NCBI GenBank assembly: GCA_013286565.1
Contig: JABDFM010000005.1
Span: 1 to 64,000, forward strand
DNA from: Bacteroidota bacterium
GTDB taxonomy: Bacteria; Bacteroidota; Bacteroidia; Sphingobacteriales; Sphingobacteriaceae
Direction: 5' to 3'
Length of the DNA stretch: 64,000 nucleotides
The notes below the pieces were generated by a model. It ran no database searches. It was given only the letters and a program-made list of their open reading frames with translations, and was not told the DNA's origin. A program made the position numbers and the translations under genes. Each line of letters begins with the position of its first letter. Position 1 is the first letter of the stretch. This document shows positions 15,027 to 51,240 of this stretch, one piece after another.

Positions 15027-15473
15027 CTATTCCGGCTTATAATTGATGGTGAGCTGATTGATCTTTTTCAGCATATCGGTCAAGTATTGCTTATCGTGCT
15101 CGCTAATGTGCTTATTGAGGTAATTGTTGAACTGCCTTACCACGCCGCGGGCCAGGTGGCGTTTTTCCTTGCCTAACTCTGTGAGGTAAATTTTTACCGA
15201 GCGTTTATCGCCTTCATTTGATTCGCGGTAGATCAGTCCTGTTTTTTCCAGCTGGTTCAGCATACGCGATAAGCTGGTTGTTTTAAGCCCCAACAGCGAT
15301 GCCGCCTGCGAAACCGTAGTCCCTTCCTTCTCATCAATATTGATGAGAAGGTACCCGATAGATTGCGTAATGCCAAATTCAGTGACCAAATTGTTATAGC
15401 GGTTGGCCATTGTTTGCCAAACTATTTTCACAAAATAGTCGATCGTTTCCTGGTGTTTGATATTAGTAGGCAT
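15027..15473 (-). CDS. MarR family transcriptional regulator
   Basis: I start it at the ATG at 15473 (MPTNIKHQETIDYF); the ORF-track start uses a TTG three codons earlier that overlaps the -7 element. The winged helix-turn-helix fits MarR: GTTVSQAASLLGLKTTSLSRMLNQLEKTGLIYR (about residues 51-83), then the wing with GDKRSVKIYLTELG. It would act as a dimeric repressor that releases DNA on ligand binding. Its target is not obvious, since neither neighbour is divergent and close. The gene is boxed in by two copies of the same repeat family, and the TAAGTTTG -7 element (15480-15487) lies 6 nt before the ATG. Confidence 0.88.
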   Translation of the reverse strand: MPTNIKHQETIDYFVKIVWQTMANRYNNLVTEFGITQSIGYLLINIDEKEGTTVSQAASLLGLKTTSLSRMLNQLEKTGLIYRESNEGDKRSVKIYLTELGKEKRHLARGVVRQFNNYLNKHISEHDKQYLTDMLKKINQLTINYKPE

Positions 15474-15479
15474 CACCGA

Positions 15480-15487
15480 CAAACTTA
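15480..15487 (-). promoter_or_regulatory. -7 element next to the marR-like start codon
   Basis: On the minus strand TAAGTTTG matches TAnnTTTG, with a TTG about 20 bp upstream. The ATG follows after 6 nt, so the transcript would be leaderless or nearly so. Confidence 0.45.
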
Positions 15488-28959: not shown

Positions 28960-29856
28960 CTACGCAGAACGCGTAGCTTTTTCAATGTTATCCCACATTT
29001 CGGCCGGTATCATTTCGAGCCCGTTGAACTGACCTGCACCTTGCAGCCATTCGCCGCCGTCGATAGTAATTACCTCGCCATTGATATAGCCGGAAAAATC
29101 GGATACGAGGAAAGCGGCAAGGTTAGCCAGTTCCTGGTGTTCGCCAACACGTTTAAGCGGCACCCTGTTTTTAAAATCAAACTTTTTAGCCATATCGCCT
29201 GGAAGTAATCTTTCCCATGCCCCTTTGGTTGGAAACGGACCGGGGGCAATGGCGTTGGTACGTATACCGTGCCTTCCCCATTCAACTGCCAGGGACCGGG
29301 TCATAGCCAGCACGCCGCCTTTTGCGCAAGCTGATGGCACCACGTAAGCCGAACCCGTGAAGGCATAAGTGGTTACAATATTCAATATGTTGCCCGGTAT
29401 TTTTTCGCTGATCCAATATTTACCCAAAGCAAGTGAACAATTGGCCGAGCCTTTTAATACGATATCAATGATAGCCGAGAATGCATTAGCTGATAAACGC
29501 TCAGTGGGCGAAATAAAATTGCCGGCTGCATTATTCAACAGCACATCAACCCGGCCAAAAACCGCAATAGCTTGTTTCAGCATATTTTCAACTTCATCAT
29601 ACTTTCGCACATCGCAGGCAAGGGCCAATACCTTTCCGCCTGTTTCTGATTCCATTTCGGAAGCTGTTTGTTTGAGCACATCCAGTTTGCGGCTGGTGAT
29701 CACCAGGTTGGCGCCTAACTTTAAGAAGTAAGTGCCCATTGATTTGCCAAGGCCCGTTCCGCCACCGGTTATGATGATGGTTTTCCCTTTCAGGGCATCT
29801 TCCTTTAACATTCCGCCGACAGGTGCAGGATTATTTGTAGTTATAGATTCGCTCAT
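28960..29856 (-). CDS. SDR oxidoreductase, 2,4-dienoyl-CoA reductase-like
   Basis: I start it at ATG 29856 (MSESITTNNPAPVGG); the listed start two codons earlier is TTG. Rossmann motif GGGTGLGKSMG (about residues 34-44), NNAAGNF, and PGPFPTKGAWERL place it with peroxisomal/bacterial DECR-type and trans-enoyl reductases. It would remove double bonds that block beta-oxidation of unsaturated acyl-CoAs. It is the last gene of the beta-oxidation operon, 6 bp after the enoyl-CoA hydratase stop, which supports that role. Confidence 0.85.
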   Translation of the reverse strand: MSESITTNNPAPVGGMLKEDALKGKTIIITGGGTGLGKSMGTYFLKLGANLVITSRKLDVLKQTASEMESETGGKVLALACDVRKYDEVENMLKQAIAVFGRVDVLLNNAAGNFISPTERLSANAFSAIIDIVLKGSANCSLALGKYWISEKIPGNILNIVTTYAFTGSAYVVPSACAKGGVLAMTRSLAVEWGRHGIRTNAIAPGPFPTKGAWERLLPGDMAKKFDFKNRVPLKRVGEHQELANLAAFLVSDFSGYINGEVITIDGGEWLQGAGQFNGLEMIPAEMWDNIEKATRSA

Positions 29857-29862
29857 GGTCAA

Positions 29863-30639
29863 TTAATTAGCAGCAGTGCTTTTTGATTTTAAATTCTGGA
29901 TCATCATCTGCAGGCCCTGCCTGGTTGCGGGCGCCCACCATTGCTTCAGCATCTGGTTTAAAGTATCGGTTTGATCGCTGGCTAATTTACCGATCAGCTC
30001 CTTACGCAAATTTAACTTACTCTGGCTCCAGGTAACCGGGGGCATTTTCATGTAGGCTATTGCCTTTTCTACGGCTGTATTCATTAATCTATCAGGGGAC
30101 GTGACCTCATCGATCAGCCCTGCTTCCAGCGCTTCATTAACATTGAGCAATTTACCCTCCATTAAATATTGATAAGCTTTATGCTGACCAAGCCAAAATG
30201 AGTACAAATGAAAAACGCTATCAGGAACAATGATACCTACAGGTATCTCATTTAAACCGATGATGAATTTCCCTTCGGCCATCACCCTGTAATCACAGCA
30301 AATGGCCAGCACACAACCGCCCGCCGGGCTATGCCCGCTGATAGCAGCTATCAATGGTTTTTTGAAAGTCGCCAAAGCATTCTGCAAACCTAAAAAACCG
30401 ATCCAAAATTCACTGCTTTGATCCTCATTGTAATCATAGGCTTCGATCAGGTCGATGCCGGAAGAGAAAAAACCTTCTTTGCCGGTTAGTATCACAGCAC
30501 CTACCGCAGCATCGCTTTCCAGCGTTTTAATGCAGTCGGTCAGCTCTTTGATCATTTGATGATTGATCGGATTTGAGCGCCCCCTATCGAGCGTAATTAA
30601 AGCCAGTCGGTCGCGTATGGTTAGTTGGAATGTGCTCAT
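29863..30639 (-). CDS. Enoyl-CoA hydratase/isomerase family protein
   Basis: The crotonase fold is shown by SNPINHQMIKEL, GAVILTGKEGFFSSGIDL and ISGHSPAGGCVLAICCDYRVM (the oxyanion loops). One catalytic Glu position reads as GLNEIPVGI, closer to the isomerase type than to a classical hydratase, so it may shift double bonds (delta3-delta2 enoyl-CoA isomerase). This fits its place beside a dienoyl-CoA reductase. It lies 9 bp downstream of the acyl-CoA ligase gene. Confidence 0.85.
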   Translation of the reverse strand: MSTFQLTIRDRLALITLDRGRSNPINHQMIKELTDCIKTLESDAAVGAVILTGKEGFFSSGIDLIEAYDYNEDQSSEFWIGFLGLQNALATFKKPLIAAISGHSPAGGCVLAICCDYRVMAEGKFIIGLNEIPVGIIVPDSVFHLYSFWLGQHKAYQYLMEGKLLNVNEALEAGLIDEVTSPDRLMNTAVEKAIAYMKMPPVTWSQSKLNLRKELIGKLASDQTDTLNQMLKQWWAPATRQGLQMMIQNLKSKSTAAN

Positions 30640-30648: not shown

Positions 30649-32463
30649 TTAATTTACGAGGGATGGATTTTGGCTTACTTCGTCCGTGTACATTTTATCT
30701 ATTTCGGCTTTGTACTTTTCGGTGATCACTTTTCGTTTCATTTTCCCTGTCGGTGTAAGCTCGCCGCTTTCTATCGACCATTCATCAGGAAGTAATGCTA
30801 TTTTCTTCACTTGCTCCACATGGTTAAACTCAGGGTTATAATTATTGACGATCGATTGGTAAAGTTCGATCACCCTGGCATCTTTGAGCAACTCTCCATG
30901 CGAGGTAAAAGGGATATCATTTTGCTTGCACCAGGGTTGTAAATGAATGTAGGAAGGGACGATCAGCGCTGCTGTGAACTTCATCCCTGCACCAACAACC
31001 ATCATTTGTTCAATAAAAGAGCTCTCCTTCATCTTATTTTCAATCGGCGTTGGCGCTACATATTTGCCGCCGGATGTTTTAAATATCTCTTTTTTGCGGT
31101 CGGTTATTTTCAGGAAAGAATCTTTATCAAATTCACCTATATCACCCGTGTGGAACCATCCGCCTTCCATTACTTCTGCCGTCAATTCGGGATTTTTATA
31201 ATAGCCTACCATCACATTCGGACCCTTGCAAAGTATTTCGCCATCATCGGCTATCTTAACCTGCACATCAGCCAATAAAGGGCCTACTGTTCCAAATCTT
31301 CTGCCGCTTTTATTATAATGGTTAACGGAAATTACCGGCGAAGTTTCGGTCAGCCCATAACCTTCTAAAATAACAATATTGGCCGCGGTAAATATTTTTG
31401 CCAATCGTACCGGGCAAGCGGAACTGCCCAAAACTATCGCTTTCACGTTTCCGCCTATGGCATTCCGCCATTTACTATAAACCAATTTATCGGCGATGGC
31501 TAACTTTATTTTATACCATAAACTGGTGCCATCGATCTCAAACTCCTCAGCAACTTTTATCGACCAGAAAAATATCTTCCGTTTAATGCCGGTTAGCTTC
31601 TGCCCCTCTACCATGATTTTCTCAAATACTTTCTCCAGCAAACGTGGTACGGCGGTAAAAATAGAGGGCTTTACTTCCTTCATATTTGCGCCGATGGTGT
31701 CCATGCTTTCGGCATAATAAATGGAATAATTATAGAAGAGAAAAGTATAGGTGCACATTTTTTCGAAAATGTGGTTCAACGGCAAAAAACTAAGCACTCG
31801 TCTTTCTACTATCGGTATCTGCATCAGCAGATCTCCGGAAGCCATGGCATTGCTCAGGATATTTTTGTGGGTAAGCACCACGCCTTTAGGCCTGCCGGTA
31901 GTGCCCGAAGTATAGATAATGGTAGCAACATCATTTTCGGTGATCTTGCTGCTTATTTCATTTGATCTTTGCTGATAATCTTCTTTTAGCGGTTGAAATA
32001 ATTTCGTCCAGTGGGTGCAGCCTTCAATCTCATCAAAAGTATAGATCCCTTTTAACGATGGTATATTGGCCGACACTTGCTTTGCTTTATCGCATAAGTC
32101 TTTATTGCTGACGAATACATATTTAACTTCAGCCTCAACTAATATCTGCTCTATTTCTTTATTACCGGTATTTGGGTACAAGGGCACCAATATGGCGCCG
32201 GTTAGTTGCACGGCGAGGTCAACTATCAGCCATTCAGGTCTGCCGCTGCTGATCAGTCCTATTTTATCACGACCTTCCGTAGTGCTATCCCCGGCGGAAA
32301 TACCCATATCCAGCAAAGCCTGCGACAACTGATGGATCATATCATGCACCTCTGTGGTGCTGTATGATTTCCATACGCCATCCACCTTTGCATTTAAAAA
32401 GTCGGCCCTCGGCTCTTTGGCCTGGCCTGCCATGCAATCAAACAATCTTGTCGCTTTTTCCAT
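30649..32463 (-). CDS. Long-chain fatty acid-CoA ligase (AMP-forming)
   Basis: The AMP-binding motif is IIYTSGTTGRPKGVVLTHKN (about residues 180-199). GYGLTETSP, WFHTGDIGEFD and ITDRKKEIFKTSGGKYVAPTPIEN follow, and TGKMKRK near the end carries the C-terminal catalytic Lys. The length of 604 aa fits the long-chain FAA/FadD15-type. It activates imported fatty acids to acyl-CoA in the cytosol at the expense of ATP. It is third from the end of the beta-oxidation operon. Confidence 0.92.
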   Translation of the reverse strand: MEKATRLFDCMAGQAKEPRADFLNAKVDGVWKSYSTTEVHDMIHQLSQALLDMGISAGDSTTEGRDKIGLISSGRPEWLIVDLAVQLTGAILVPLYPNTGNKEIEQILVEAEVKYVFVSNKDLCDKAKQVSANIPSLKGIYTFDEIEGCTHWTKLFQPLKEDYQQRSNEISSKITENDVATIIYTSGTTGRPKGVVLTHKNILSNAMASGDLLMQIPIVERRVLSFLPLNHIFEKMCTYTFLFYNYSIYYAESMDTIGANMKEVKPSIFTAVPRLLEKVFEKIMVEGQKLTGIKRKIFFWSIKVAEEFEIDGTSLWYKIKLAIADKLVYSKWRNAIGGNVKAIVLGSSACPVRLAKIFTAANIVILEGYGLTETSPVISVNHYNKSGRRFGTVGPLLADVQVKIADDGEILCKGPNVMVGYYKNPELTAEVMEGGWFHTGDIGEFDKDSFLKITDRKKEIFKTSGGKYVAPTPIENKMKESSFIEQMMVVGAGMKFTAALIVPSYIHLQPWCKQNDIPFTSHGELLKDARVIELYQSIVNNYNPEFNHVEQVKKIALLPDEWSIESGELTPTGKMKRKVITEKYKAEIDKMYTDEVSQNPSLVN

Positions 32464-32490: not shown

Positions 32491-33666
32491 TTATAATAAT
32501 TCAAATATACCCGCTGCACCTTGCCCTGTGCCCACACACATGGTAACCATACCATATTTTTTGTCCCGCCTTTTCAATTCATTAAAAAGCTGAACAGAAA
32601 GCTTTGCACCTGTGCAACCCAGCGGATGGCCAAGCGCTATGGCCCCGCCATTTACATTGATGATCTCCGGGTCAAGATCAAGCCCTTTGATCACCGCTAA
32701 TGACTGCGAAGCAAAAGCTTCATTTAGCTCGATAAGTTCCACGTCCTGCTGTTTCATCCCAGCCATTTTCAACACTTTCGGAATAGCAACCAGTGGACCA
32801 ATACCCATAATTCGCGGCGGTACACCGGCAACTGCATAGTTAACCATCCTGGCAATGGGTGTCAAATTATTCGCTTTTAAGAAGCGCTCGCTAACTACCA
32901 TTACAAAAGCGGCGCCATCACTTGTCTGCGAGGAGTTGCCCGCGGTTACCACGCCCTTCGCGTCAAAAACAGGCTTCAGTTTATTTAAAGCGTCGATAGA
33001 TGTATCGGCACGCGGGCCTTCGTCGGTATCAACTTTAAACTCCCTGTTTTTTTTCTTACCGCTTTCGTCCACGTAGGTTTCCACAACATTTACCGGTACT
33101 ATTTCGTCCTTAAATTTATCGTTTTTAATGGCGCTGATAGCTTTTTGGTGCGAGCCATAAGCAAACTGGTCCTGTTCTTCGCGACTGATATTATACTCCT
33201 TTGCAACAGCTTCTGCAGTCAACCCCATGCCCCAGTAATAATCCGGATGAGCCAAAGCAACATCAGCATTGGGCACGATGCGCCAGCCACCCATCGGCAG
33301 CAGGCTCATGCTTTCCACACCACCTGCAATAATGCAATCGGCAATGCCGCTATGTATTTTTGCTGATGCGATAGCGATGGTCTCCAAACCTGATGCGCAG
33401 TAGCGGTTTACAGTCATGCCGGGTACTTTATCAGTATCTAAAGCAATTAATGAGATCAACCGGGCCACATTAAGACCCTGTTCGGCCTCGGGGGTAGCAT
33501 TGCCCACGATCACATCCTCTATCTGCTCCTTATCCACATTAGGCACCGATGCCATCAGGTGCTTGATAACGTCCGCGGCAAGTGTATCCGGTCGGGTAAA
33601 TCTAAATCCGCCACGGGTAGCTTTTCCAACAGCGCTGCGGCTGGCTGCCACTATATATGCGTTCAT
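32491..33666 (-). CDS. fadA: Acetyl-CoA C-acyltransferase (thiolase)
   Basis: The nucleophile Cys90 is in VNRYCASGLETIA. The His of ALNEAFA-like LIELNEAFASQSLAV, GGAIALGHPLGCTGA and the second catalytic Cys in MCVGTGQG are all present. It cleaves 3-ketoacyl-CoA to acetyl-CoA and a shortened acyl-CoA. The length of 391 aa is normal. It sits 27 bp downstream of the FadB-type gene, the usual partner, which supports degradative rather than biosynthetic use. Confidence 0.93.
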   Translation of the reverse strand: MNAYIVAASRSAVGKATRGGFRFTRPDTLAADVIKHLMASVPNVDKEQIEDVIVGNATPEAEQGLNVARLISLIALDTDKVPGMTVNRYCASGLETIAIASAKIHSGIADCIIAGGVESMSLLPMGGWRIVPNADVALAHPDYYWGMGLTAEAVAKEYNISREEQDQFAYGSHQKAISAIKNDKFKDEIVPVNVVETYVDESGKKKNREFKVDTDEGPRADTSIDALNKLKPVFDAKGVVTAGNSSQTSDGAAFVMVVSERFLKANNLTPIARMVNYAVAGVPPRIMGIGPLVAIPKVLKMAGMKQQDVELIELNEAFASQSLAVIKGLDLDPEIINVNGGAIALGHPLGCTGAKLSVQLFNELKRRDKKYGMVTMCVGTGQGAAGIFELL

Positions 33667-33693: not shown

Positions 33694-36075
33694 TTAGTTC
33701 CTCAATACTTTTCCGCCAGTTATGATGGATTGTATTCTTTCAAGCGTTTTCTTTTCGGTGCAAAGCGAAATGAAAGCTTCACGCTCCAACCCTAACAGGT
33801 AGTCCTCGCTTACTATGGATGGCTGGGAAAGGTCGCCACCCGAAAGCACGTAGGCCAGTTTCTGCGAAATTTTCACATCATGCTCGCTGATATAATTGCC
33901 GCTGTACATGGTATTAGCGCCCACATAGCCTAAGCCGAGGGCCTGCTTGCCCAGCACCCGGATATCGCTACGCGGGATGGGTTGCACGTAGCCTTCATCG
34001 GCCATTTGCAGGCATTGTTGCTTGGCTTCAGCTAATAACCGGTTGCGCGATACCACCACGACATCCCTGCCTTTTTTAAGATAGCCAAACTCGAACGCCT
34101 CGTAAGCTGAAGTGGATACTTTGGCCTGCCCGATGGTTAAAAACCTATCCCTGAAATTATTCAGCTCGATATCACCATCCTGCAATTCATCCGAAAGGCG
34201 CAGGGCAAATTCCTTCGTTCCGCCGCCGCCCGGTATCAGGCCAACACCAAACTCAACCAAACCCATATATAATTCAGCATGGGCCACTACCTTATCGGCA
34301 TGGAGGCACATTTCGCAACCGCCGCCCAAAGCCATCTGGTGAGGCGCTATGACCACCGGAATGGACGAGTAACGTATCCGCATCATGGTGTTTTGGAAAG
34401 CTTTTACAACCGCGTTCAACTCATCAAACTCCTGTTCAACAGCCATCATAAATATCATACCTACATTGGCCCCTGCGCTGAAATTTGCCCCCTCGTTGGA
34501 TATCACCAAGCCTTTATAGCTTGTTTCGGCAAGTGTGATTGCTTTATTAATGCCTTCGATCACTTCGCCGCCGATGGTATTCATTTTAGTATGAAACTCC
34601 AGGTTGAGGATGCCATCACCAATATCGGTAATGGTAGTGCCGCTGTTTTTCCATACGGTATTTGTTGCACGGATATTATCCAGCAATATAAACCCTTCCG
34701 TACCCGGAATTACCTTGTAGCTTTTTGATGGAATATCATAATACAGGCGTTTGCCGTTCTCTATTTTATAGAAGCTTTTTGAACCAGCTGCCAGCATATC
34801 ATATACCCATTGGGCAGGTTTATTCCCGACAGCTTCCATTGCTTTTATGGTATCCTCAACGCCCAACGCATCCCATTTTTCAAATGGCCCCATTTCCCAA
34901 CCAAACCCGGCACAGGTAGCGGCATCTATTTTATAAAGCTCGTCAGCTATTTCGGGGATACGGTTGCTGGCATAAGCGAATAACTGGTAAAACGTAGCCC
35001 GGTAAAAATCACCTGCTTTATCTTTTGCGGCAAACAGAATCTTAAGCCTATCCTTCAAACTATCAACTGTTTTAGTGGTTTCGAGCGAAACGAATTTTAC
35101 TTTTTGCGATGGTTTGTATTCCAATGTTTTCAGGTCGAGCGCAAAAAACTGGTTTGTGCCGTCAACTTTTTCCTTTTTATAAAAACCCTGGCCGGTTTTA
35201 CTCCCCAGCCAGTTATTTTTTACCATCCCATCCACAAATTCGGGGATCTTAAATAACTCCCTTGCTTCATCATCCGGCGCATTATCATAAAGGCCTTTGG
35301 CCACATGCACCATCGTATCTAAACCCACCACATCATTGGTGCGGAATGTAGCTGATTTGGGGTGACCAATAACCGGCCCGGTAAGCTTATCTACTTCTTC
35401 AACGGTCATCCCGGTTTTTTCTACATAATGCAGCACACTCATGATGCTGAAAACGCCGATACGGTTACCTATGAAGGCGGGGGTATCTTTGGCTAATACC
35501 GTAGTTTTGCCCAGGTACTTTTCGCCATACTCCATCAGGAAATCTACCACTCCCGGTAAGGTATCTTTTGTCGGGATGATCTCCAGCAGTTTTAAATAGC
35601 GGGGAGGGTTAAAGAAATGGCTCCCGCAAAAATGTTTTTTAAAATCTTCGCTGCGGCCCTCAGCCATTAAATGGATCGGTATGCCGGACGTATTGGAAGT
35701 GATCAATGTGCCGGGTTTCCTGTATTTTTCTACGTTTTCAAATACCTTTTGTTTAATATCTAAACGCTCAACCACGACCTCTATCACCCAATCGCAGTCA
35801 GCAATTTTCGACAGATCATCATCAAAATTTCCGGTTGTAATGCGTTTGGCAAATGATTTAAGATAGATAGGCGAAGGGTTTGATTTTAAGGCAAAATCCA
35901 AGGCATCATTAACAATTTTATTCCTGGCTTTTTTATCGTCCGAAAAGGCATCTTTAGGTACAATATCGAGCAGTAGCACCTGCAAGCCGATATTGGCAAA
36001 ATGACAGGCGATACGGCTGCCCATCACGCCTGAACCCAGTACTGCAACCTTCTTTATAATTTGTTTAGCATCCAT
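33694..36075 (-). CDS. 3-hydroxyacyl-CoA dehydrogenase / enoyl-CoA hydratase, FadN-type
   Basis: The dehydrogenase comes first: Rossmann VAVLGSGVMGSRIACHFANIG (about residues 10-30), SNTSGIPIHLMAEG, HFFNPPRYLKLLE and the helical C-domain to about residue 420. A crotonase domain follows at about 480-700 (ISNEGANFSAGANVG, PHQMALGGGCEM). This order is that of B. subtilis FadN, opposite to E. coli FadB. It carries out the hydration and NAD-dependent oxidation steps of beta-oxidation. It is preceded at 37 bp by a DUF2147 gene and followed by thiolase. Confidence 0.92.
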   Translation of the reverse strand: MDAKQIIKKVAVLGSGVMGSRIACHFANIGLQVLLLDIVPKDAFSDDKKARNKIVNDALDFALKSNPSPIYLKSFAKRITTGNFDDDLSKIADCDWVIEVVVERLDIKQKVFENVEKYRKPGTLITSNTSGIPIHLMAEGRSEDFKKHFCGSHFFNPPRYLKLLEIIPTKDTLPGVVDFLMEYGEKYLGKTTVLAKDTPAFIGNRIGVFSIMSVLHYVEKTGMTVEEVDKLTGPVIGHPKSATFRTNDVVGLDTMVHVAKGLYDNAPDDEARELFKIPEFVDGMVKNNWLGSKTGQGFYKKEKVDGTNQFFALDLKTLEYKPSQKVKFVSLETTKTVDSLKDRLKILFAAKDKAGDFYRATFYQLFAYASNRIPEIADELYKIDAATCAGFGWEMGPFEKWDALGVEDTIKAMEAVGNKPAQWVYDMLAAGSKSFYKIENGKRLYYDIPSKSYKVIPGTEGFILLDNIRATNTVWKNSGTTITDIGDGILNLEFHTKMNTIGGEVIEGINKAITLAETSYKGLVISNEGANFSAGANVGMIFMMAVEQEFDELNAVVKAFQNTMMRIRYSSIPVVIAPHQMALGGGCEMCLHADKVVAHAELYMGLVEFGVGLIPGGGGTKEFALRLSDELQDGDIELNNFRDRFLTIGQAKVSTSAYEAFEFGYLKKGRDVVVVSRNRLLAEAKQQCLQMADEGYVQPIPRSDIRVLGKQALGLGYVGANTMYSGNYISEHDVKISQKLAYVLSGGDLSQPSIVSEDYLLGLEREAFISLCTEKKTLERIQSIITGGKVLRN

Positions 36076-36112: not shown

Positions 36113-36571
36113 TTATTCTGCCCGAGTCCAGGTAGTTGTGCGCCCGAAAAGTGATATACCGATGTACCCACGTATATCTAAGGTATTGCCCTTATAGGTC
36201 ATTTTGCAGGAATAGGTCTTACCATTATTGGGATCATAAATGGTGCCGTCGGTGTATTTGTTTTTATCATCATCGTCTTTTACAAAATCAGCCAGTACTG
36301 GTAAACCCAGCCTTGGCCTGGTGCGTAATTTCTCGTCCGAGTTTAGTTCGTCAACTTTAGGCTTGCCATTTTTCAAAGGTTCTTTCAGCCATACCACCTT
36401 GCCGTAAAACTTGCCGTTGGTCGCCTTGGTGATCAGTATCTTAGCGCTTTTTACATCATTGTACCACAAGCCTTCGATTTGATCGGTTTGCGCCTTAGCG
36501 ATCACATTTACTGATAGTATGATAGCGATCACTAAAATAAAACGGGGTAAATTTTTCCTGATTACAGACAT
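36113..36571 (-). CDS. DUF2147 secreted protein in the beta-oxidation operon
   Basis: A signal peptide (LPRFILVIAIILSVNVIAKAQ) is followed by the DUF2147 pattern: IEGLWYNDVKSAKILI, GKFYGKVVWLKEP, DGTIYDPNNGKTYSCKM and GNTLDIRGYIGISLFGRTTTWTR. DUF2147 is a small lipocalin-like beta-barrel of unknown function. Lipid-binding folds of this kind and the position directly before the FadN-type gene hint at a role in handling fatty acids in the periplasm; that is inference. A possible hairpin lies upstream at 36677-36694. Confidence 0.85.
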   Translation of the reverse strand: MSVIRKNLPRFILVIAIILSVNVIAKAQTDQIEGLWYNDVKSAKILITKATNGKFYGKVVWLKEPLKNGKPKVDELNSDEKLRTRPRLGLPVLADFVKDDDDKNKYTDGTIYDPNNGKTYSCKMTYKGNTLDIRGYIGISLFGRTTTWTRAE

Positions 36572-36809
36572 AGCTTATTGAATATTATTGTGAAATAATT
36601 AAATCTATACTCCGGCCTGTCTGTATCATCACAAACAATGGATAGAAAAGAAACAGGCAGAATTATAAAAAGTTAGCCCCGATAATTACCGGGGTGGTTT
36701 ATAATAACAAATATCCTTTTTAGCAGCGTTTTACAAAGGGCTAAATGGCGGAAACATTTGTCAATATTTCGGCAAATAAAATGTCAGTTTTATTTAATCG
36801 GGCTGGGTG

Positions 36810-37241
36810 CTATTCTTCAACATAATCGGTGCTCCTGGGCGCCTTCATGTACATTTCGCTTAATTCGGTAGGTAATATAGCCAATTTGCGCTTTTCCATA
36901 TCGATCCACGCGCCATCAGCTACAATTATTGCAGCTTTAACACCATCCCCACGATATAACTCATGCCGTATAGACCAACGCGAACCATCCCGCCGGGATT
37001 TGGTCAACTCGCAGGTTACTTTGATGTGCTCATTAATTCCTATTTCGCGTAAATAAATTAGTTCTTCTCTAAATAATACCGGTCCTATTTTAAATTCATA
37101 TAGTTTGGGTAAGGTTAAACCTAAACTTTCCAGCATGATGATACGCGCCTGCGCCGCAAAATCAGCATAGGCCGAGTGCCTCATGTGCTGGTTCGAGTCG
37201 ATCTGTGACCAAAGCACCTGTCCTTCATAAAATAAATTCAT
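36810..37241 (-). CDS. Acyl-CoA thioesterase, hot-dog fold (4HBT/YbgC type)
   Basis: The sequence WSQIDSNQHMRHSAYADFAAQARI carries the Asp/His pattern of the 4HBT thioesterase active site. VTCELTKSRRDGSRWSIRHELYRGDG is the long beta-strand region of the hot-dog fold. The length of 143 aa is usual. It would hydrolyse acyl-CoA, possibly relieving CoA trapping during fatty-acid breakdown. It lies between the acyl-CoA dehydrogenase and DUF2147 genes, with a repeat on its 5' side. Confidence 0.8.
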   Translation of the reverse strand: MNLFYEGQVLWSQIDSNQHMRHSAYADFAAQARIIMLESLGLTLPKLYEFKIGPVLFREELIYLREIGINEHIKVTCELTKSRRDGSRWSIRHELYRGDGVKAAIIVADGAWIDMEKRKLAILPTELSEMYMKAPRSTDYVEE

Positions 37242-37412: not shown

Positions 37413-39209
37413 TTAAAAACAATATTTATTTTCAGCGATCAGCTTTGCAGCAATATTACGACGTGCCTTGGTAGTATTGATATCTTCGGTTTTGGTGAAT
37501 CGCTTAAGGCCCATCATCATCATTCTTTTTTCATCGCCTTCGGCAAATGAGTTCAACGCTTCTTTGCCCGATTTGGCAATATGCTCGGCGGCATCGTTCA
37601 GATATACCCGCATGATATCCAGTTGCTCTTTGCAGGCATCTTCACCTCTCATTCCAACCAGTTTTTCCACCCGCAATTGCAACGATTCGCTCACATATAA
37701 TTCGATCAGCATATCGGCCACGTTCATCAGCACTTCCTGCTCTTTACCCAATTGGGTCATCAGTTTTTGAACCGCAGCGCCTGCTACCATCAATACGGCC
37801 TTTTTAAAATTGGCGATGTATTTTTTCTCTTTTGTAAACAAGCCGTCCTCGTCAGCTCCGCCAAAATCGGGGATACTTACCAGTTCACCAGCAACTTTCT
37901 GAGCAGGGCCCATCAGGTCGAGTTCGCCTTTCATGGCGCGCTTCAGCATCATATCCACGGTCAGCATCCGGTTAATTTCATTAGTGCCCTCGAAGATGCG
38001 GTTAATCCTTGAATCACGGTACGCCCTGTCCATAGGTGCTTCCGCGCTGTAGCCCATACCACCGTAGATTTGCACACCCTCATCTACCACGTAATCCAAA
38101 ACTTCTGAGGCATGTACTTTAAGAATGGCGGCTTCTATAGCATATTGCTCTGTTCCCTTTAATTTGGCTTGAGTTTCATCAAGGCCAGATGCCATTAATG
38201 TTTCAGTCGCCTCTTCCATATTCTGGCAGGCCCGGTAAACTGCCGACTCTGAAGCATAAGTGCGAATAGCTTGCTGGGCAAGCTTATACCTTATCGCCCC
38301 GTATTTTGAAATAGGGCGACCGAATTGCTCGCGTTCATTGGCGTAGCGAATTGCTGATGAGATCACATCCTTACTTGCCCCAACTGTTCCCCCACCTAAT
38401 TTGATACGGCCCAGGTTTAATATGTTCACCGCGATTTTAAAACCATTCTGACGTTCGGACAGGAGGTTCTCAACCGGTACTTTACAATCGTTAAAAAATA
38501 CCTGCCGGGTTGAGCTTCCTTTGATACCCATTTTATGTTCCTCAGTATTTAGCGAAAGCCCTTCAAAATCTTTTTCAACAATAAATGCGCTCAGGTTTTC
38601 ATCATCATCAATTTTGGCGAAGACGGTGAATATATCAGCAAAGCCTGCATTGGTGATCCACATTTTTTGCCCGGTGATGAGGTAATGTTTACCATCTGCA
38701 GATAATTTTGCCTTTGCTTTACCCGAATTGGCATCCGAGCCTGCACCGGGTTCGGTAAGGCAATAAGCACCTTTCCATTCGCCGCTGGCCAGTTTGGGGA
38801 TATATTTTTGTTTTTGTGCCTCATTGCCATAATATAATATGGGCAGCGTGCCGATACCTGTATGCGCCGAAAACGCAACAGAAAATGAATGCCCGGCACC
38901 TAATTTTTCAGTAACCAGCATAGATGTTTTAAAATCCTTGCCAAAGCCCCCGTATTCTTCGGGGATAGATATGCTCAATAGTCCAAGCGCCCCTGCTTCA
39001 TCCATTAGATGGGGCATCAGGCCCTCTTCCTGGTCGTCAATACGTTGCAGGTTTGGTGTTACCTGTTGCGCCAAAAAATCGGTGCAGGTATTAGCGATCA
39101 TTAACTGCTCTTCATTCCATTCTTCAGGAATAAAAATACTATCCGCAGAGGTTTCCCTGATCAGGAACTCGCCTCCCTTTATGGCTTTAATAGATTCAGT
39201 GGCATTCAT
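37413..39209 (-). CDS. fadE: Acyl-CoA dehydrogenase, long form
   Basis: I start it at ATG 39209 (MNATESIKAIKGG); the listed start is TTG. The acyl-CoA dehydrogenase fold is clear: SISIPEEYGGFG, AYCLTEPGAGSDA, GQKMWITNAGFADIF, and QIYGGMGYSAEAPMDRAYRDSRINRIFEGTNEINR with the usual catalytic Glu region. A C-terminal extension of about 160 residues, helical and charged, is typical of the roughly 600-aa VLCAD-like forms. It makes the first FAD-linked oxidation of acyl-CoA. It is the first gene of the beta-oxidation block; a box shared with fadL lies 110 bp upstream. Confidence 0.92.
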   Translation of the reverse strand: MNATESIKAIKGGEFLIRETSADSIFIPEEWNEEQLMIANTCTDFLAQQVTPNLQRIDDQEEGLMPHLMDEAGALGLLSISIPEEYGGFGKDFKTSMLVTEKLGAGHSFSVAFSAHTGIGTLPILYYGNEAQKQKYIPKLASGEWKGAYCLTEPGAGSDANSGKAKAKLSADGKHYLITGQKMWITNAGFADIFTVFAKIDDDENLSAFIVEKDFEGLSLNTEEHKMGIKGSSTRQVFFNDCKVPVENLLSERQNGFKIAVNILNLGRIKLGGGTVGASKDVISSAIRYANEREQFGRPISKYGAIRYKLAQQAIRTYASESAVYRACQNMEEATETLMASGLDETQAKLKGTEQYAIEAAILKVHASEVLDYVVDEGVQIYGGMGYSAEAPMDRAYRDSRINRIFEGTNEINRMLTVDMMLKRAMKGELDLMGPAQKVAGELVSIPDFGGADEDGLFTKEKKYIANFKKAVLMVAGAAVQKLMTQLGKEQEVLMNVADMLIELYVSESLQLRVEKLVGMRGEDACKEQLDIMRVYLNDAAEHIAKSGKEALNSFAEGDEKRMMMMGLKRFTKTEDINTTKARRNIAAKLIAENKYCF

Positions 39210-39280: not shown

Positions 39281-39288
39281 TAAAGTTA
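39281..39288 (-). promoter_or_regulatory. -7-like element of fadE
   Basis: On the minus strand TAACTTTA (7/8 to TAnnTTTG) lies 30 bp after the shared box. The fadL promoter has TAATTTTA at 29 bp from its box, so the spacing is conserved. Confidence 0.5.
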
Positions 39289-39318
39289 GAGGCACAATTA
39301 AATCAATGAAAGGTCTGC

Positions 39319-39347
39319 AATGCGGAGATTTTAGTCAAAAAGTCGGA
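39319..39347 (-). promoter_or_regulatory. Shared 29-bp box upstream of fadE (candidate AraC site)
   Basis: On the minus strand it reads TCCGACTTTTTGACTAA, then AATCTCCGCATT. It matches the box at 40359-40387 at 28 of 29 positions. TCCG occurs at positions 1 and 22, that is 21 bp or two helical turns apart, as expected for an AraC-type direct repeat. Confidence 0.75.
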
Positions 39348-39363
39348 AAGGGGTTGGATTAAC

Positions 39364-40251
39364 TTAATGAGCAGACACTGCCCTATAGTCTGACGGCGAC
39401 ATGCCGGTATGCTTTTTAAAATATTTGCCAAATGAGGATTGATCCGGGAAGTGTATATCGTCGGCCACATTGGAAATGCTTATCTCATGATTTCTTAATA
39501 ATACTTTAGCCTCCAGTATTACCGCGTCATCTATCCATTCACCTGCGGTCCTACCGGTTACTTCTTTAATGGTTTCTGTTAAATGTTTTGGGGATACACA
39601 AAGTGCATCGGCGTAGTATTGCACGTTGCGATGTTCCTTATAATGCTGAAAAACAACATCCTGGAAAAGTACATTCAGTTCCTGTTTACGGGTTTGCTTG
39701 CCCTTTATCATTAAATGCTGCTTCTCATAAACAGATTGTATTTCATAAAGCAGCGTCATTAAAATACTGCGGGATATTTCAACATGGTAGGGATGCCCCT
39801 CGCGCTCCAATTTTTGTTGTATCAGTAAATAAATTTCCAGTATCATCCGGGCATCAGCGTCCTCAGGGTAAATGACCGGGATGGACGCGCTTTTAAAGTA
39901 ACTGAATGATTCCAAAAAATGGCTGTTAACGCTATTTTCGGTTAAAAAAGCTTTGCTAAAAACAATAAACCGGCACAAAAAATCGGGGCTGCTATTATAT
40001 ATCCTTAAAACGTGGAAGGGTGTTGCCAACAGCATGGCACCGGGCCGGGCCTCGTAAACCTGCAAATTTACCTCTACATGTGCTGTTCCCCGTGTGCAGA
40101 TACCTATAATATAGCCGTCTGACCGATAAGGGTACTCGCTCAAACTTAATAGCTGTTTTTCATCAACTACAAAAAAATCGGCACCTGCCAGCTTGTCCGC
40201 ATAAAGATCCGCAAATTTTGATAAGCTTAATTGTCCGATCCTTTTATTCAT
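39364..40251 (-). CDS. AraC family regulator, candidate controller of fatty-acid degradation
   Basis: The C-terminal AraC double helix-turn-helix spans about residues 190-293 (YYADALCVSPKHLTETIKEVTG and ISNVADDIHFPDQSSFGKYFKKHTG). The N-terminal part (about 1-150) is a cupin-like sensing domain (GTAHVEVNLQVYEARPGAMLLATP). The gene sits between fadE and fadL, and both have the same box in front. That makes this protein the likely factor that binds there; the ligand could be a fatty acid or acyl-CoA. The regulatory link is inference. Confidence 0.85.
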   Translation of the reverse strand: MNKRIGQLSLSKFADLYADKLAGADFFVVDEKQLLSLSEYPYRSDGYIIGICTRGTAHVEVNLQVYEARPGAMLLATPFHVLRIYNSSPDFLCRFIVFSKAFLTENSVNSHFLESFSYFKSASIPVIYPEDADARMILEIYLLIQQKLEREGHPYHVEISRSILMTLLYEIQSVYEKQHLMIKGKQTRKQELNVLFQDVVFQHYKEHRNVQYYADALCVSPKHLTETIKEVTGRTAGEWIDDAVILEAKVLLRNHEISISNVADDIHFPDQSSFGKYFKKHTGMSPSDYRAVSAH

Positions 40252-40358
40252 ACATTCTCAAGATACAATTTAATCACTGAACTTATTTTAAAAATCAATC
40301 AAAAAAACAGCCGGGTTTTATATTCAATTTTGGCACCCGATGTTAAAAATAAACTTTA

Positions 40359-40387
40359 TCCGACTTTTTGACTAATATCTCCGCATT
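40359..40387 (+). promoter_or_regulatory. Shared 29-bp box upstream of fadL (candidate AraC site)
   Basis: TCCGACTTTTTGACTAA then TATCTCCGCATT; only one base differs from the fadE box. It ends 29 bp before TAATTTTA (40417-40424) and 101 bp before the fadL start. At fadE the same distances are 30 and 109 bp. Confidence 0.75.
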
Positions 40388-40416
40388 ATAGCCCTTTTTT
40401 TCGTTTCAATACAAAC

Positions 40417-40424
40417 TAATTTTA
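40417..40424 (+). promoter_or_regulatory. -7-like element of fadL
   Basis: TAATTTTA, one mismatch to TAnnTTTG, lies 64 bp before the start codon. Just downstream, TTGTAT/ATACAA (40442-40458) forms a short inverted repeat in the leader. Confidence 0.45.
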
Positions 40425-40488: not shown

Positions 40489-41712
40489 ATGAGAAAACTT
40501 TTACTATTAGCGCTTGCGTTATTACCGGTTTTTGCATTTGCACAGGGTTTCCAGGTTAACCTGGAGGGCCAGAAGCAAATAGGCATGGGCCATACCGGGA
40601 CAGGAATATTACAGGACGGAGCTTCTGTATTTTTCAACCCAGGCGCGGTAGCCATGCTGCCGCAAAATTATATCCAGGCAGGTGTAAGCCCCTTATTTTA
40701 CAAGTCTGATTTTAACCCGTCCGGTACCTCGATACAGGACCATAACGCAGACAAGATCGCTTACCCCTTTACTTTTTATGCTGCCTGGGGGCCTAAAGCT
40801 TCTTTCTGGAAATTAGGTCTGGCTGTTTACACGCCTTTCGGCGGATTAACTGACTGGGGCGATACCTGGCAGGGAAAATATGTTTTAGAAAGCCTCAACC
40901 TGAAAGCCATTTATATTCAGCCTACCATAAGTATCAGGCTGGCTGATTTCCTGAGCATCGGTGGCGGTTTTGTTTACAACCGCGGAAGTGTTGATCTTAC
41001 CCAGGCCCTCCCATTGGCAAACAGCTCGGGGCAAGCAGGACAGGCTGAATTAAAAGGCAGCGGTAAAGGCTACGGTTGGAACGCAGGTATCTATTTCAAA
41101 ACAGAATCAGGCGTTACCATAGGTATCACCCACCGTTCACAGGTGAATACTACCATTCCTAACGGGAATGCAATTTTCACTGTGCCGACTTCATTGGCAA
41201 GCAGTTTTCCTCAACCCAATACCTTTAGCTCAACTATACCATTGCCTGCTGTAAACTCTATAGGTTTCGGATTTTATCCCTGCAGCAAGTGGATATTGGC
41301 TTTCGATATGAACCTGGTTGGTTGGGATGCTTATAAAACACTATCGTTTGATTATAAAAGCACTACCCCTGCATTACAGGATACCCACGAGCCCAGGAAC
41401 TACCAGGATGCGGTTAGTTTACGTGGCGGTGCGCAATATAAGGCCAATGATAAACTTTTCATCCGTTTTGGCGGCGGCTATGCCAGCACAGCGGTTATGG
41501 ATGGTTACGTATCACCCGAGGCGCCTGATGCTAACCGTGTATATGTTACCGGTGGTTTAGGTTATACGCTTGCAAAGCACCTCGATCTTGATCTTTCTTT
41601 TGAGTATGAGCACCTGATGAAGCGTACACAAACCAATTTCTCAACACAGCTATCGGGTACGTTTGAAACTAATGTATATATCCCCGGTATCTCACTTGCT
41701 TATCACTGGTAA
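40489..41712 (+). CDS. fadL: FadL/OmpP1-type outer-membrane fatty acid transporter
   Basis: The signal peptide is MRKLLLLALALLPVFAFA. The mature start GFQVNLEGQKQIGMGHTGTG and SVFFNPGAVAMLP match the N-terminal hatch region of OmpP1/FadL/TodX porins. The rest alternates as a 14-stranded barrel, ending LAYHW. It lets long-chain fatty acids or other hydrophobic molecules cross the outer membrane. It is followed after 19 bp by an SGNH lipoprotein gene, a common pairing in Bacteroidota. The shared upstream box ties it to the beta-oxidation genes. Confidence 0.9.
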   Translation: MRKLLLLALALLPVFAFAQGFQVNLEGQKQIGMGHTGTGILQDGASVFFNPGAVAMLPQNYIQAGVSPLFYKSDFNPSGTSIQDHNADKIAYPFTFYAAWGPKASFWKLGLAVYTPFGGLTDWGDTWQGKYVLESLNLKAIYIQPTISIRLADFLSIGGGFVYNRGSVDLTQALPLANSSGQAGQAELKGSGKGYGWNAGIYFKTESGVTIGITHRSQVNTTIPNGNAIFTVPTSLASSFPQPNTFSSTIPLPAVNSIGFGFYPCSKWILAFDMNLVGWDAYKTLSFDYKSTTPALQDTHEPRNYQDAVSLRGGAQYKANDKLFIRFGGGYASTAVMDGYVSPEAPDANRVYVTGGLGYTLAKHLDLDLSFEYEHLMKRTQTNFSTQLSGTFETNVYIPGISLAYHW

Positions 41713-41731: not shown

Positions 41732-43063
41732 ATGAAAACGTTTAAACAACATATTTACATTATTGCGGGGTTACTCTTATTGGGTGCCTGCAAGCCTGAT
41801 ATCCATACGCCAAAGCCATCGAGTGGCTCGGCGGATTTTTCAAGATACATATCCGTTGGTAATTCATTAACCGCTGGTTATGCCGATGGGGGCCTGTACC
41901 TTGCCGGACAATTGAACTCTTATCCAAGTATAATTGCCAAACAAATGCAATCGGTTGGCGGCGGGGCCTTTACCCAGCCATTATTCAGTACAGCGCAGGC
42001 CAATGGCTCGGGTTATTTATCGCTTACAGGATTTAATGCTGACGGCACGCCAATCACAACTCCTGTTACCACTAATCTGGCAATCAGGGGACTACTGCCA
42101 TTACCCGGGTTTGGTAACGTTACTTTATATACCAAATATACCGGCGACCTCAACAATTATGGTGTACCGGGCATTAAACTGCTATACATCACAGATGCCG
42201 GTCTTCCGTTGCCTTATGCCAACTTAAACGGTTATTTTGAGCGCCTTTTACCGGGTAATTCACCCACTCTTACAACCAGCTATTTAGACTTTGTAACTGC
42301 AAAACCATTTACCTTTTTCTCTAACTGGTTAGGCAATAATGATGCTTTACTGTATGCTACATCCGGGGGCGCTGGAGATTTTTTAACCGACGAAAATACT
42401 TTTGCACAACTCTACGGTTTATTGATCAGCAGATTGACAGCAAATGGGCAAAAAGGTGTGGTAGCTACCATACCTGATGTAACATCGATCCCTTATTTTA
42501 ATACCATAACAGTTGGCGCAATTTTAGGCGGGGTACAAAAGGCAAACCCATCGGTGCAGGCCATTTTTATTAATGCGCTTGTATCAGGCACAACTTATGC
42601 CCCAAGGGCCGCCACAGCAAAGGACCTGATCGTGTTAACTTTCCCTACCAGTAAGATCGGTCAGCCTGTTTCTACACCTTATGGTATGCTGCCTTATGGT
42701 TTAACTCCCTATTCACCTATTGATAACCAATATGTGCTGGATGAGAACGAGATTGCTTTAACCCAGGAACATGTGAATTCTTATAATGCCAATATTAAAT
42801 CCATCGCGGCAGCAAAAGGGTTGGCGGTGTTTGATGCTTATACTTTCCTGAATAACGTTAAGCAGTACGGTTTGGTAGAAAATGGCGTGAGCCTAAGTTC
42901 GGCTTATATCAGTGGCGGGATATTTTCGCTGGATGGCGTGCATTTAACCCCAAGAGGGTACTCCATAGTGGCCAATGAGTTTATTAAAGCCATCAATGCA
43001 AAATATGGCTCAAATATACCTTTGGCTAATGTATCGGATTATAGTGGGGTTAAGTTCCCCTAA
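41732..43063 (+). CDS. SGNH/GDSL-family lipoprotein paired with FadL
   Basis: The signal peptide ends in a lipobox, LLLLGAC. SGNH blocks are visible: YISVGNSLTAGYADGG (block I with Ser), NWLGNNDAL (block III Asn) and LDGVHLTPRGYSIVANEF (block V Asp/His). It is therefore probably a surface or periplasmic esterase/lipase. Being co-transcribed with FadL, it could release fatty acids from lipids for import; that is inference from context. Length is 443 aa. Confidence 0.85.
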   Translation: MKTFKQHIYIIAGLLLLGACKPDIHTPKPSSGSADFSRYISVGNSLTAGYADGGLYLAGQLNSYPSIIAKQMQSVGGGAFTQPLFSTAQANGSGYLSLTGFNADGTPITTPVTTNLAIRGLLPLPGFGNVTLYTKYTGDLNNYGVPGIKLLYITDAGLPLPYANLNGYFERLLPGNSPTLTTSYLDFVTAKPFTFFSNWLGNNDALLYATSGGAGDFLTDENTFAQLYGLLISRLTANGQKGVVATIPDVTSIPYFNTITVGAILGGVQKANPSVQAIFINALVSGTTYAPRAATAKDLIVLTFPTSKIGQPVSTPYGMLPYGLTPYSPIDNQYVLDENEIALTQEHVNSYNANIKSIAAAKGLAVFDAYTFLNNVKQYGLVENGVSLSSAYISGGIFSLDGVHLTPRGYSIVANEFIKAINAKYGSNIPLANVSDYSGVKFP

Positions 43064-43164: not shown

Positions 43165-43872
43165 TCAGGCGAATAATCTCAAAAAATGGTTTTCCAGGTG
43201 ATTGCGCATACCATTTCGCAATTTTTCAGCGGAACCTTTCTCAATAAGCGCTATTAATCCGGCGTGCGAAACATAATCCTTTACTTCAACAGTTTTTTTG
43301 AGTAAACCGCTTCTGTGCACGTAATCAAAAACAGGCAATAGCATCTTCTGGAATTTTCTCAGTGTCTCATTCCCGGTAATATCATAAAGCTTACCATGAA
43401 ACCTGATCTCCTGCTCTATCATAAATATCTCGTGGCTTGTTTCCAATGGCTCACTGGCTACGATCATTTTTAGTTCGGCAATATCTTCTGGGGTCACCCT
43501 GTTAATGATCAGGTCAGCCATTCCTATCTCTAATGATAGGCGCATCTCAAATATCTCCTTTAAGGTAGTGGTATCCAATATCTGGGGGTTCATGCTTTTC
43601 TCCAGTATTGATACCAGGTCGGGGCTGGTTATTACAGCGCCACGTTTCTTTTTTGAATCGATCATCCCGATCATCCTTAACCTCAGCAATGCCTCGCGTA
43701 TCACCGTGCGGCTTACGCCCAGGGCCTGAGTAAGTTCGAGCTCCTTGGGTATGGAGTCACCTACTTTATAGTTCTTATCTATAAATAGCTCGATTAAATT
43801 CTTTTCAACCCGGTCAACCAGCGAACTGGTGTCTATATTTTTGAAATTTTCTTTAAGGTCGGTACTCGTCAT
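43165..43872 (-). CDS. nanR: GntR family regulator with FCD domain, candidate sialic acid regulator
   Basis: The N-terminal winged helix reads YKVGDSIPKELELTQALGVSRTVIREALLRLRMIGMI (about residues 36-72). The C-terminal FCD helical domain has the usual metal-binding His pattern around residues 154-220 (EIRFHGKLYDI, SHAGLIALIE). It is divergent from the susC-led sialic acid operon, and a 16-bp-arm palindrome lies in between, close to susC. By position it should be the local repressor, like NanR of enteric bacteria, but the symbol is by context. Confidence 0.8.
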   Translation of the reverse strand: MTSTDLKENFKNIDTSSLVDRVEKNLIELFIDKNYKVGDSIPKELELTQALGVSRTVIREALLRLRMIGMIDSKKKRGAVITSPDLVSILEKSMNPQILDTTTLKEIFEMRLSLEIGMADLIINRVTPEDIAELKMIVASEPLETSHEIFMIEQEIRFHGKLYDITGNETLRKFQKMLLPVFDYVHRSGLLKKTVEVKDYVSHAGLIALIEKGSAEKLRNGMRNHLENHFLRLFA

Positions 43873-43976
43873 AATAATGTGGTTGTAAACATACGAAATA
43901 GCAATTTATATAGCGAAATTCTAATGGTGTATTTCTAACACACAGATTATCAATGTTAAAAATACTTTAAAAATTA

Positions 43977-44009
43977 TTTGGAAAGATAAGTAAATATTTT
44001 CTATAATTG
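43977..44009 (+). promoter_or_regulatory. Putative promoter of the sialic acid operon
   Basis: TTTG (43977-43980) as -33 box and TATAATTG (44002-44009, one mismatch to TAnnTTTG) as -7 box, 21 bp apart. The -7 box coincides with the left end of the palindromic operator, so binding there would block RNA polymerase. Confidence 0.4.
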
Positions 44010-44036
44010 TATTATGTATGACATAATACAATTATA
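44002..44036. promoter_or_regulatory. Palindromic operator upstream of susC
   Basis: TATAATTGTATTATGT and ACATAATACAATTATA form perfect 16-bp arms around a 3-bp centre. The inner TATGT/ACATA fits a GntR-type site. It ends 14 bp before the susC start. No second copy is seen in front of the regulator gene itself. Confidence 0.75.
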
Positions 44037-44050
44037 AACACTTAAATTAA

Positions 44051-47000: not shown

Positions 47001-47386
47001 AAGCCTGGACACCAGACAACACCAACACCATGATACCTAAAGTATATTATGCCGACCAGGTAGCTGGTTCAAAGGATAATTATACCCGCGGTAATAATGC
47101 AAGTGCGAGTTTACAAGGTGAGAACTCACAGTTTTACGAAAGCGGGGATTACCTGGCTTGCCGCGAAATTACCCTATCGTATGATTTTCCTAAATCGTTA
47201 TTAGCCAGGACCAGGGTGTTCAAGTCAGCAAGGATATACATGAGCGGGACGAATTTATTTTACATAAAGAAGTTTAGCGGCCCTGATCCGGAAGCTCCTG
47301 TATCCGGTAATACAATCACAGGTGTGTACCAGGGGACCTATCCAACACCACGCACTTATTCATTAGGCATCCAGGTTTCTTTATAA
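44051..47386 (+). CDS. SusC/RagA-type TonB-dependent importer of the sialic acid locus
   Basis: A signal peptide (FLTVAQAQ) is followed by the carboxypeptidase-like domain (ITGKVISGHDKTTLPGVTVVIKG, about residues 28-105), the plug with the SusC/RagA hallmark VLVIGYGTQSRGTVTSAV and NPSPPLVVVDG, and a large barrel to residue 1111. With the SusD lipoprotein encoded 18 bp downstream it forms a lidded outer-membrane importer. The enzymes in the same locus indicate that the cargo is sialic acid or sialo-oligosaccharides. Confidence 0.93.
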   Translation: MNKNFTFIRTLLTVTVVLFLTVAQAQTRRITGKVISGHDKTTLPGVTVVIKGTTKGTQTDVDGNYDINAAKGDVLVFSYVGYLQQQIVVGDQSTIDVSLKDDATKLNEVLVIGYGTQSRGTVTSAVAKLDNQVLANAPRANVASALQGTVSGIQVVASSGAPGSTPLITLRGGASINNPSPPLVVVDGIIRSYADIPTEDIESVNILKDAASTAIYGARANNGVILITTKKGKAGSSDITYKFTTGFNKDRQGYQYVDAADYIYYARLGRLNNFLALNPSETSLTAGQLTTLNKTRGYGLLTDPASLQSFDIQAETPANINLLQQGWQDIADPANPGQRIIFKDHSGQIADALFRNTQTIDHYLSASGGNDKGTYFSSLDYYNEPGVIVGSTYDRYSGNFSGSYKVKPNVEVSSGVTFSTSNQLGVASGSDINDIYRTLSLWPTFNPWLNAAQTVPNPGNSISDGNPLYWLQKTKRSNEVDRFTANAAINWQILPGLNFKISGNGYYYGNIQQSYQDATQLYSNLPTNTFNNTSRPAVAYSERDFSQTYDADLNYTKSFGKNNLSLLLGTEYYDTNIFDQQTSGTGAATDDISTANASTLFAPGTNYSQSSETRIISTLGRLNYDYDQKYLLTFVLREDGVSVLSAAKRIGYFPGMSAGWNLQKEDFFQNLGISKVISTIKPRISYGSNGNVGKIGAYDVQGIYSASNITYGGVGGVSNIAPTLGGLQWETSNTKDAGIDLGFFHDRISLLFDYYDRVTSNLLTQLPLPSYAGFSTLETNDGSLQNKGVEFTLKANIINSPGGFRLDFGATASYDKNKILKLPYNGQPNNRQNTIQVFDPKTGQLISVGGLQEGQAMGQIYGYKEIGIFANQAQVQAVAGNRVDNIAHINGPNLAPGSGGSIQPGDVNWEDVNHDGIIDSRDQVYLGNIFPTWTGGFNFNAAYRGFSFYTRFDYSLGNTIYNDFVARSLGGYQGTFNFINEIKQAWTPDNTNTMIPKVYYADQVAGSKDNYTRGNNASASLQGENSQFYESGDYLACREITLSYDFPKSLLARTRVFKSARIYMSGTNLFYIKKFSGPDPEAPVSGNTITGVYQGTYPTPRTYSLGIQVSL

Positions 47387-47404
47387 ACTATTAATTAATT
47401 TAAC

Positions 47405-48970: not shown

Positions 48971-49033
48971 GACGAATAATAAAGATACTATGCTTTTAGC
49001 ATGGGTTGAGAATTAGTTGGTTTGAATCTTTTT

Positions 49034-49058
49034 TATACCGGGGCATTGCCCCGGTATA
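49034..49058 (+). terminator. GC-rich hairpin between susD and nanA
   Basis: TATACCGGGGC and GCCCCGGTATA pair perfectly (11-bp arms, ATT loop). No T-run follows on the plus strand, so partial termination or mRNA 3'-end stabilisation is likelier than full stop. Confidence 0.6.
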
Positions 49059-50036: not shown

Positions 50037-50047
50037 GCCGCAAACAA

Positions 50048-51238: not shown

Positions 51239-51240
51239 AG

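Follow-up and report, generated by a model that had tools for sequence, protein, structure and literature searches.

Known Regulators of Fatty-Acid Degradation

FadR, PsrA and FadP are repressors. FadR belongs to the GntR family and PsrA and FadP to the TetR family; they control fatty-acid degradation in proteobacteria, replacing one another between lineages (PMC5343134). The open literature searched yielded no regulator of fatty-acid degradation for Bacteroidota, no AraC-family regulator of beta-oxidation there, and no paper linking Mucilaginibacter, AraC and beta-oxidation; subscription papers lay mostly outside this search.

E. coli AraC is a dual regulator. Other AraC-family proteins, namely ToxT, Rns and HilD, respond to fatty acids, and ToxT and HilD are inhibited by them (PMC7504960). 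Here, we describe a locus of the Sphingobacteriaceae whose sequence suggests that an AraC-family regulator very probably controls fat consumption in Mucilaginibacter.

The fad Genes and the AraC-Family Protein

The window (the whole stretch of DNA analysed, 64,000 nucleotides) carries several operons for fatty-acid uptake and degradation, each preceded by a copy of the site discussed below. On the plus strand, fadL, encoding an outer-membrane fatty-acid transporter (40489..41712; PF03349, 1.2e-46; PRK10716, 5.4e-25, below the curated cut-off), is followed by a GDSL lipase/esterase gene (41732..43063; PF00657), which adjoins fadL in relatives as well. On the minus strand, fadE encodes an acyl-CoA dehydrogenase (37413..39209, ATG start at 39209; NF058590, 7.5e-242) and precedes a gene for a 4HBT-type thioesterase (36810..37241; PF13279). 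The third operon, also on the minus strand, opens with a DUF2147 protein gene (36113..36571; PF09917) and continues with fadB (33694..36075; 3-hydroxyacyl-CoA dehydrogenase/enoyl-CoA hydratase), fadA (32491..33666; acetyl-CoA C-acyltransferase, TIGR01930) and a fadD-like acyl-CoA synthetase gene (30649..32463), ending at 28960..30639 with an enoyl-CoA hydratase (29863–30639) and a short-chain dehydrogenase (28960–29862).

Most relatives carry etfB-etfA between fadE and the thioesterase gene, behind the same box (L064, 3683–5464; L086, L089, L100–L112); the pair is absent from this interval in the window. A fadE paralogue had been considered for the position behind the box in L100–L112, but the genes there are etfB and etfA (Pfam identification in L064). 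Downstream of the GDSL gene, at 43165–57000, an FCD-type GntR gene lies beside a SusC/SusD-like pair and apparent sialic-acid genes, judged from sequence (NanA-like lyase, Kelch mutarotase, transporter, epimerase and sialidase); the profile scan of this region covered the GntR gene.

Between fadE and fadL, where the earlier note had placed it, lies the gene of an AraC-family regulator of 295 aa (39364..40251, minus strand), the proposed binder of the boxes. It possesses the C-terminal double helix-turn-helix of the family (Pfam HTH_18, PF12833, 6e-21; HTH_AraC, PF00165, 4.4e-13), and its nearest named relatives come from Mucilaginibacter species, a genus of soil bacteria to which the window is assigned. 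Foldseek searches with a structure model of the protein (pLDDT 86, pTM 0.82) placed ToxT and Rns on top by E-value, with low full-length TM scores (0.31–0.39) and some targets solved with fatty acids. The regulatory domain of RhaR matched with a TM of 0.77–0.79 by target length, and the domains of AraC and BgaR matched too; the comparison gave no specific sign of a lipid ligand for the effector domain. Since sugar-sensing domains fit as well, the ligand is predicted from the target genes instead of the fold: probably a fatty acid or acyl-CoA bound in the N-terminal domain.

A Direct-Repeat Box before Three fad Operons

The earlier note had reported a 29-bp sequence in front of both fadE and fadL. 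Both copies are indeed present at the positions given, TCCGACTTTTTGACTAAAATCTCCGCATT before fadE (39319–39347, minus strand) and TCCGACTTTTTGACTAATATCTCCGCATT before fadL (40359–40387, plus strand), identical at 28 of 29 positions, and the TCCG motif recurs 21 bp apart within the box as described. The 29 bp form the core of a longer element, 37–38 bp ending in AGCCCT. The length of 38 bp comes from an alignment of relatives' loci carrying the araC orthologue, which gives the extended consensus TTCCGACTTTTTGACYAATATCTCCGCATTNYAGCCCT (about 50 bits). Column identity reaches 0.88–0.94 inside the box versus 0.39–0.50 across the 25 bp upstream of it.

Two direct half-sites of 17 bp, TCCGACTTTTTGACYAA and TCCGCATTNYAGCCCTT, make up the box at a spacing of 21 bp; they have CCGnnTTnnnGnCC in common. 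Self-similarity of the site profile has a sharp maximum at a direct shift of 21 bp (column-shuffle p = 0.0004), the direct-repeat period characteristic of class II sites of the AraC/XylS type.

Moreover, the window contains three sites instead of the two first noticed. The box of the fadL–GDSL promoter (40358..40395, plus strand; half-sites 40359–40375 and 40380–40396) scores 60.2 bits and that of the fadE–thioesterase promoter (39311..39348, minus strand) 55.3 bits, while the overlooked third one, TGCCGAAATATTGACAAATGTTTCCGCCATTTAGCCCT (36737..36774, minus strand), scores 48.5 bits and lies 166 bp before the DUF2147-fadB-fadA-fadD-ECH-SDR operon. The next best stretch of the window reaches only −5.3 bits. 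The third site is weaker and has the same architecture; of the 59 loci read, the window counted, 45 possess it.

The fadL and fadE boxes of a single genome are more alike than shuffled pairs (p = 0.0002), clade-specific spacer variants included; no such excess likeness to either was seen for the fadB box. The pattern could have come from gene conversion between the two inverted copies or from co-adaptation. In one genome (G213; L008, 1420–1457), the box is partly duplicated: an additional first half-site, TTCCGACTTTTTGACTAAT, stands between araC and the fadE box.

Promoter Geometry

As claimed previously, a TAA(C/T)TTTA element follows the 29-bp core at 30 bp for fadE and 29 bp for fadL. Measured from the end of the full box, the −7-like element of fadL, TAATTTTA (40417..40424, plus strand), lies 21 bp away, that of fadE, TAACTTTA (39281..39288, minus strand), 22 bp away, and that of the fadB operon, GATATTTG (36708..36715, minus strand), again 21 bp away, its first base deviating from TAnnTTTG. 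This offset is kept in relatives: TAnnTTT starts 21 bp past the box in 46 of 47 distinct fadL promoters and 21 or 22 bp past it in 52 of 53 distinct promoters at the fadE position, and in the alignment of fadB operons GATATTTG stands at offset 21 in most promoters. Column identity in the −7 region is 0.85–0.95. The distance from site to promoter is therefore fixed at all three promoters, as in class II activation.

The distances of 109 and 101 bp to the start codons were also correctly given, but do not amount to a conserved feature, as the box-to-start-codon distance at fadE ranges from 57 to 227 bp among relatives. Because this distance varies and the offset of TAA(C/T)TTTA is constant, the match in start-codon spacing is a coincidence, and the match in spacing to the −7-like element is real.

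In Flavobacteria, the sigma-A −7 box TAnnTTTG occupies positions −12 to −5 (PMC9723704). Transferred to the present promoters, this places the 38-bp box at about −71 to −34. E. coli araI1-I2 occupies the same place in its promoter, in the geometry of class II activation, and the position of the box thus argues for predicted activation of this class.

Distribution of araC and the Box

Among 251 genomes of the family, 20, including the window's own, encode an orthologue of the araC gene (72–90% identity), to which a fragment in G249 (85%) can be added; the next best full match has 39% identity. Most of these loci have a box on both sides of araC. In a profile search of 150 Mucilaginibacter genomes, a strong box (E ≤ 1e-5) was found in all 65 araC-positive genomes versus 1 of 85 araC-negative ones, the genomes being related and the counts not independent. 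In the single exception (G319), the box begins at base 163 of a 4-kb contig, which ends 162 bp upstream of it, and araC may be located off the contig. Among the araC paralogues, just this orthologue tracks the box.

This co-occurrence is partly linkage, since araC and the boxes adjoin in every genome seen, and is inflated by kinship. The box nevertheless belongs with the fad promoter and not with araC, as two kinds of loci demonstrate: in L086, L089, L109 and L115, further genes lie between araC and the fadE box, with the box still at the fad promoter, and where fadE has moved into the fadBA operon, the box stays before etfB-etfA. Autoregulation of araC was rejected as the main role of the box, because no box is found upstream of araC where fadL is not the divergent neighbour (L098, L105 and Chitinophagaceae).

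The pattern is rare. With up to 3 mismatches, the window contains two matches versus none in 100 shuffles; the whole draft genome (3.2 Mb, about 72% complete) likewise contains two, versus none for the reversed pattern. With a second profile built from all three site classes, none of 28 araC-positive genomes showed more than three full-length sites, and every one of these lay at the fad locus; 150 first-look candidates were scored per genome, and weak sites could escape. Further regulon members were sought among the other matches in these genomes and dismissed, the matches (E 0.004–0.05) being mostly partial and non-recurring; one of them, in G243, is that genome's own third site. The search for the pattern before lipid genes, suggested by the earlier note, thus returned full-length sites before fad operons exclusively, and the box is kept before orthologous fadL and fadE genes of relatives.

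The set of araC, box and fadBAE also occurs in metagenome-assembled genomes of Flavipsychrobacter and Chitinophagaceae, again with an offset of 22 bp. The proposed link between the AraC protein and a regulon of fatty-acid degradation and uptake is therefore supported, the box tracking the araC orthologue across 150 genomes and in another family.

Near distant AraC homologues (27–35% identity), the best box-like match lies within 800 bp of araC in 21 of 36 loci, versus 5.3 expected and 7 with the reversed profile, a contrast inflated by relatedness. In G277 and G254, the gene of an AraC protein with 31% identity has a clear box (36 and 35 bits) directly behind it, ahead of an unrelated operon. 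These boxes (L220, 5229–5266; L221, 5147–5184) have the same architecture; among the products of the operon are a cupin resembling pirin and an efflux protein of the outer membrane. Distant AraC genes of Flavobacteria and Pedobacter also have neighbouring boxes of a related form, TTTTGACCAAT...AGACCT, followed after about 22 bp by an A..TTTG-like element (L164–L196). A phylum-wide grammar of AraC sites is possible.

An Orphan MarR Gene and a Possible Earlier fad Operon

Possession of araC follows that of fadB: 20 of 20 araC-positive genomes tested carry fadB versus 3 of 30 araC-negative ones, which for the most part have no beta-oxidation genes; kinship inflates the contrast. The three exceptions (G267, G275 and G180) contain MarR-fadB-fadA-fadE operons lacking the box, with fadB and fadE 69–72% identical to those of the window. 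No box was found at the fadL homologues of 14 araC-negative genomes either.

The MarR proteins of these three genomes are 76–81% identical to one encoded in the window by an orphan gene (15027..15482, minus strand), situated at the spot where araC-negative relatives keep the fad operon. Their neighbours correspond, in whole or in part, to those in the window: a photolyase, an FKBP pair, a gamma-glutamyltransferase and a small secreted or outer-membrane protein. The window and 12 further araC-positive genomes that were checked have FKBP and/or gamma-glutamyltransferase genes next to MarR and no adjoining fadB. The loci compared are 11705–18103 of the window, L217–L219 and L225–L240: in the window the orphan MarR stands between FKBP and gamma-glutamyltransferase genes, and in araC-negative relatives the same MarR adjoins fadB-fadA-fadE. 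On the simplest reading of this synteny, the AraC-controlled fad locus would have replaced a MarR-linked one, leaving the MarR gene behind. It would represent a swap of regulators with the old one still within the same 64-kb window.

Proposed Mechanism and Alternatives

We consider it quite likely that this AraC-family protein is a local regulator of fatty-acid use acting on three operons. At each promoter, a dimer would occupy a single 38-bp box, with one 17-bp direct half-site for each monomer; the 21 bp between half-sites correspond to two helical turns. The predicted targets are fadL–GDSL lipase, fadE–(etfBA)–thioesterase and DUF2147-fadB-fadA-fadD-ECH-SDR. The promoter-proximal half-site would end at about −34, the spot of a −33 element, so that the bound protein could recruit RNA polymerase as a class II activator at TAnnTTTR-like −7 promoters; a fatty acid or acyl-CoA would probably switch it on. 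The activating sign is read from the position of the site alone. Two further ideas were discarded: looping between the fadL and fadE boxes, as the two lie anywhere from about 1.0 to 4.4 kb apart, and an invertible segment between the inverted boxes, as the orientation of araC is constant in the loci read.

Once bound to the boxes, the AraC protein might instead serve chiefly to repress, or have a dual role, with relief by a fatty acid or acyl-CoA. Precedents exist in E. coli AraC, itself dual, and in the GntR- and TetR-family regulators FadR, PsrA and FadP described for proteobacterial beta-oxidation (PMC5343134). We regard this as unlikely, as the box ends about 21–22 bp upstream of the −7 element at all three promoters, in the position of a class II activator and not over the start site. 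Still less probable is that another protein binds the boxes, whether the orphan MarR, the GntR encoded at 43165–43872 or an AraC-family paralogue. The MarR was probably the earlier regulator of a fad operon and is still present, and these genomes contain many AraC paralogues; yet the MarR-linked fad operons lack the box, the GntR gene was not found at the fad loci of relatives and adjoins the apparent sialic-acid genes, and no paralogue tracks the box. Sites of MarR and GntR proteins are usually inverted repeats, and the box is a direct repeat with a 21-bp period.

Almost no credence can be given to a view of the box as a mobile or dispersed repeat, or as a sequence kept merely because the locus is young. 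The inverted orientation of the fadL and fadE boxes and their common clade-specific variants, as from gene conversion, would fit such an origin, but the genome-wide counts rule out a dispersed repeat, as none of the genomes searched holds more than three full-length copies and all of these precede fad operons. In addition, the flanks have diverged, the third site differs in sequence while keeping the architecture, and the box is conserved in two families. We thus retain the AraC protein as the candidate class II activator. It is about an even bet whether the wider proposal also holds, in which beta-oxidation in one branch of Bacteroidota would have a dedicated controller, a fatty-acid-sensing AraC activator with its own version of the fad genes, a displaced MarR-linked locus and a site grammar shared by related AraC proteins across the phylum.

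With a candidate regulator and three target operons, a defined site and a promoter geometry, the locus lends itself to direct tests in culturable Mucilaginibacter. It also suggests a site rule for other AraC proteins of the phylum: a 21-bp direct repeat placed 21–22 bp from the −7 element.

Comparison with Known Systems

The MarR-linked fad operons of G267, G275 and G180 share fadB, fadA and fadE with the window locus, and fadD lies nearby in two of the three, but they have no araC and no box and occupy another genome position. With the regulons of FadR, PsrA and FadP, the locus shares the pathway genes, the placing of sites in front of several operons for fatty-acid degradation and uptake, and a probable local swap of unrelated regulators, as known between lineages. 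It differs in the protein family, the co-occurring regulator being of the AraC and not of the GntR or TetR family, in the direct instead of inverted repeat, and in the predicted activation instead of repression.

ToxT, Rns and HilD have the same AraC-family fold, ToxT and Rns giving the best Foldseek E-values. However, identity is 9–16%, full-length TM scores are low, their targets are virulence genes and sugar-sensing AraC domains fit equally well; moreover, the inhibition of ToxT and HilD by fatty acids is opposite in sign to that needed for a fatty-acid-induced activator.

A close parallel is E. coli AraC at araI1-I2 of araBAD, which shares the family and the helix-turn-helix domain (2k9s, 9.6e-11), the two direct 17-bp half-sites 21 bp apart, and the position of the proximal one beside the −35/−33 region. 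The half-site sequence, the target pathway, the Bacteroidota −7 element, the number of promoters (three) and the lack of any sign of looping between boxes set the present locus apart. The regulon is new, while its kind is textbook.
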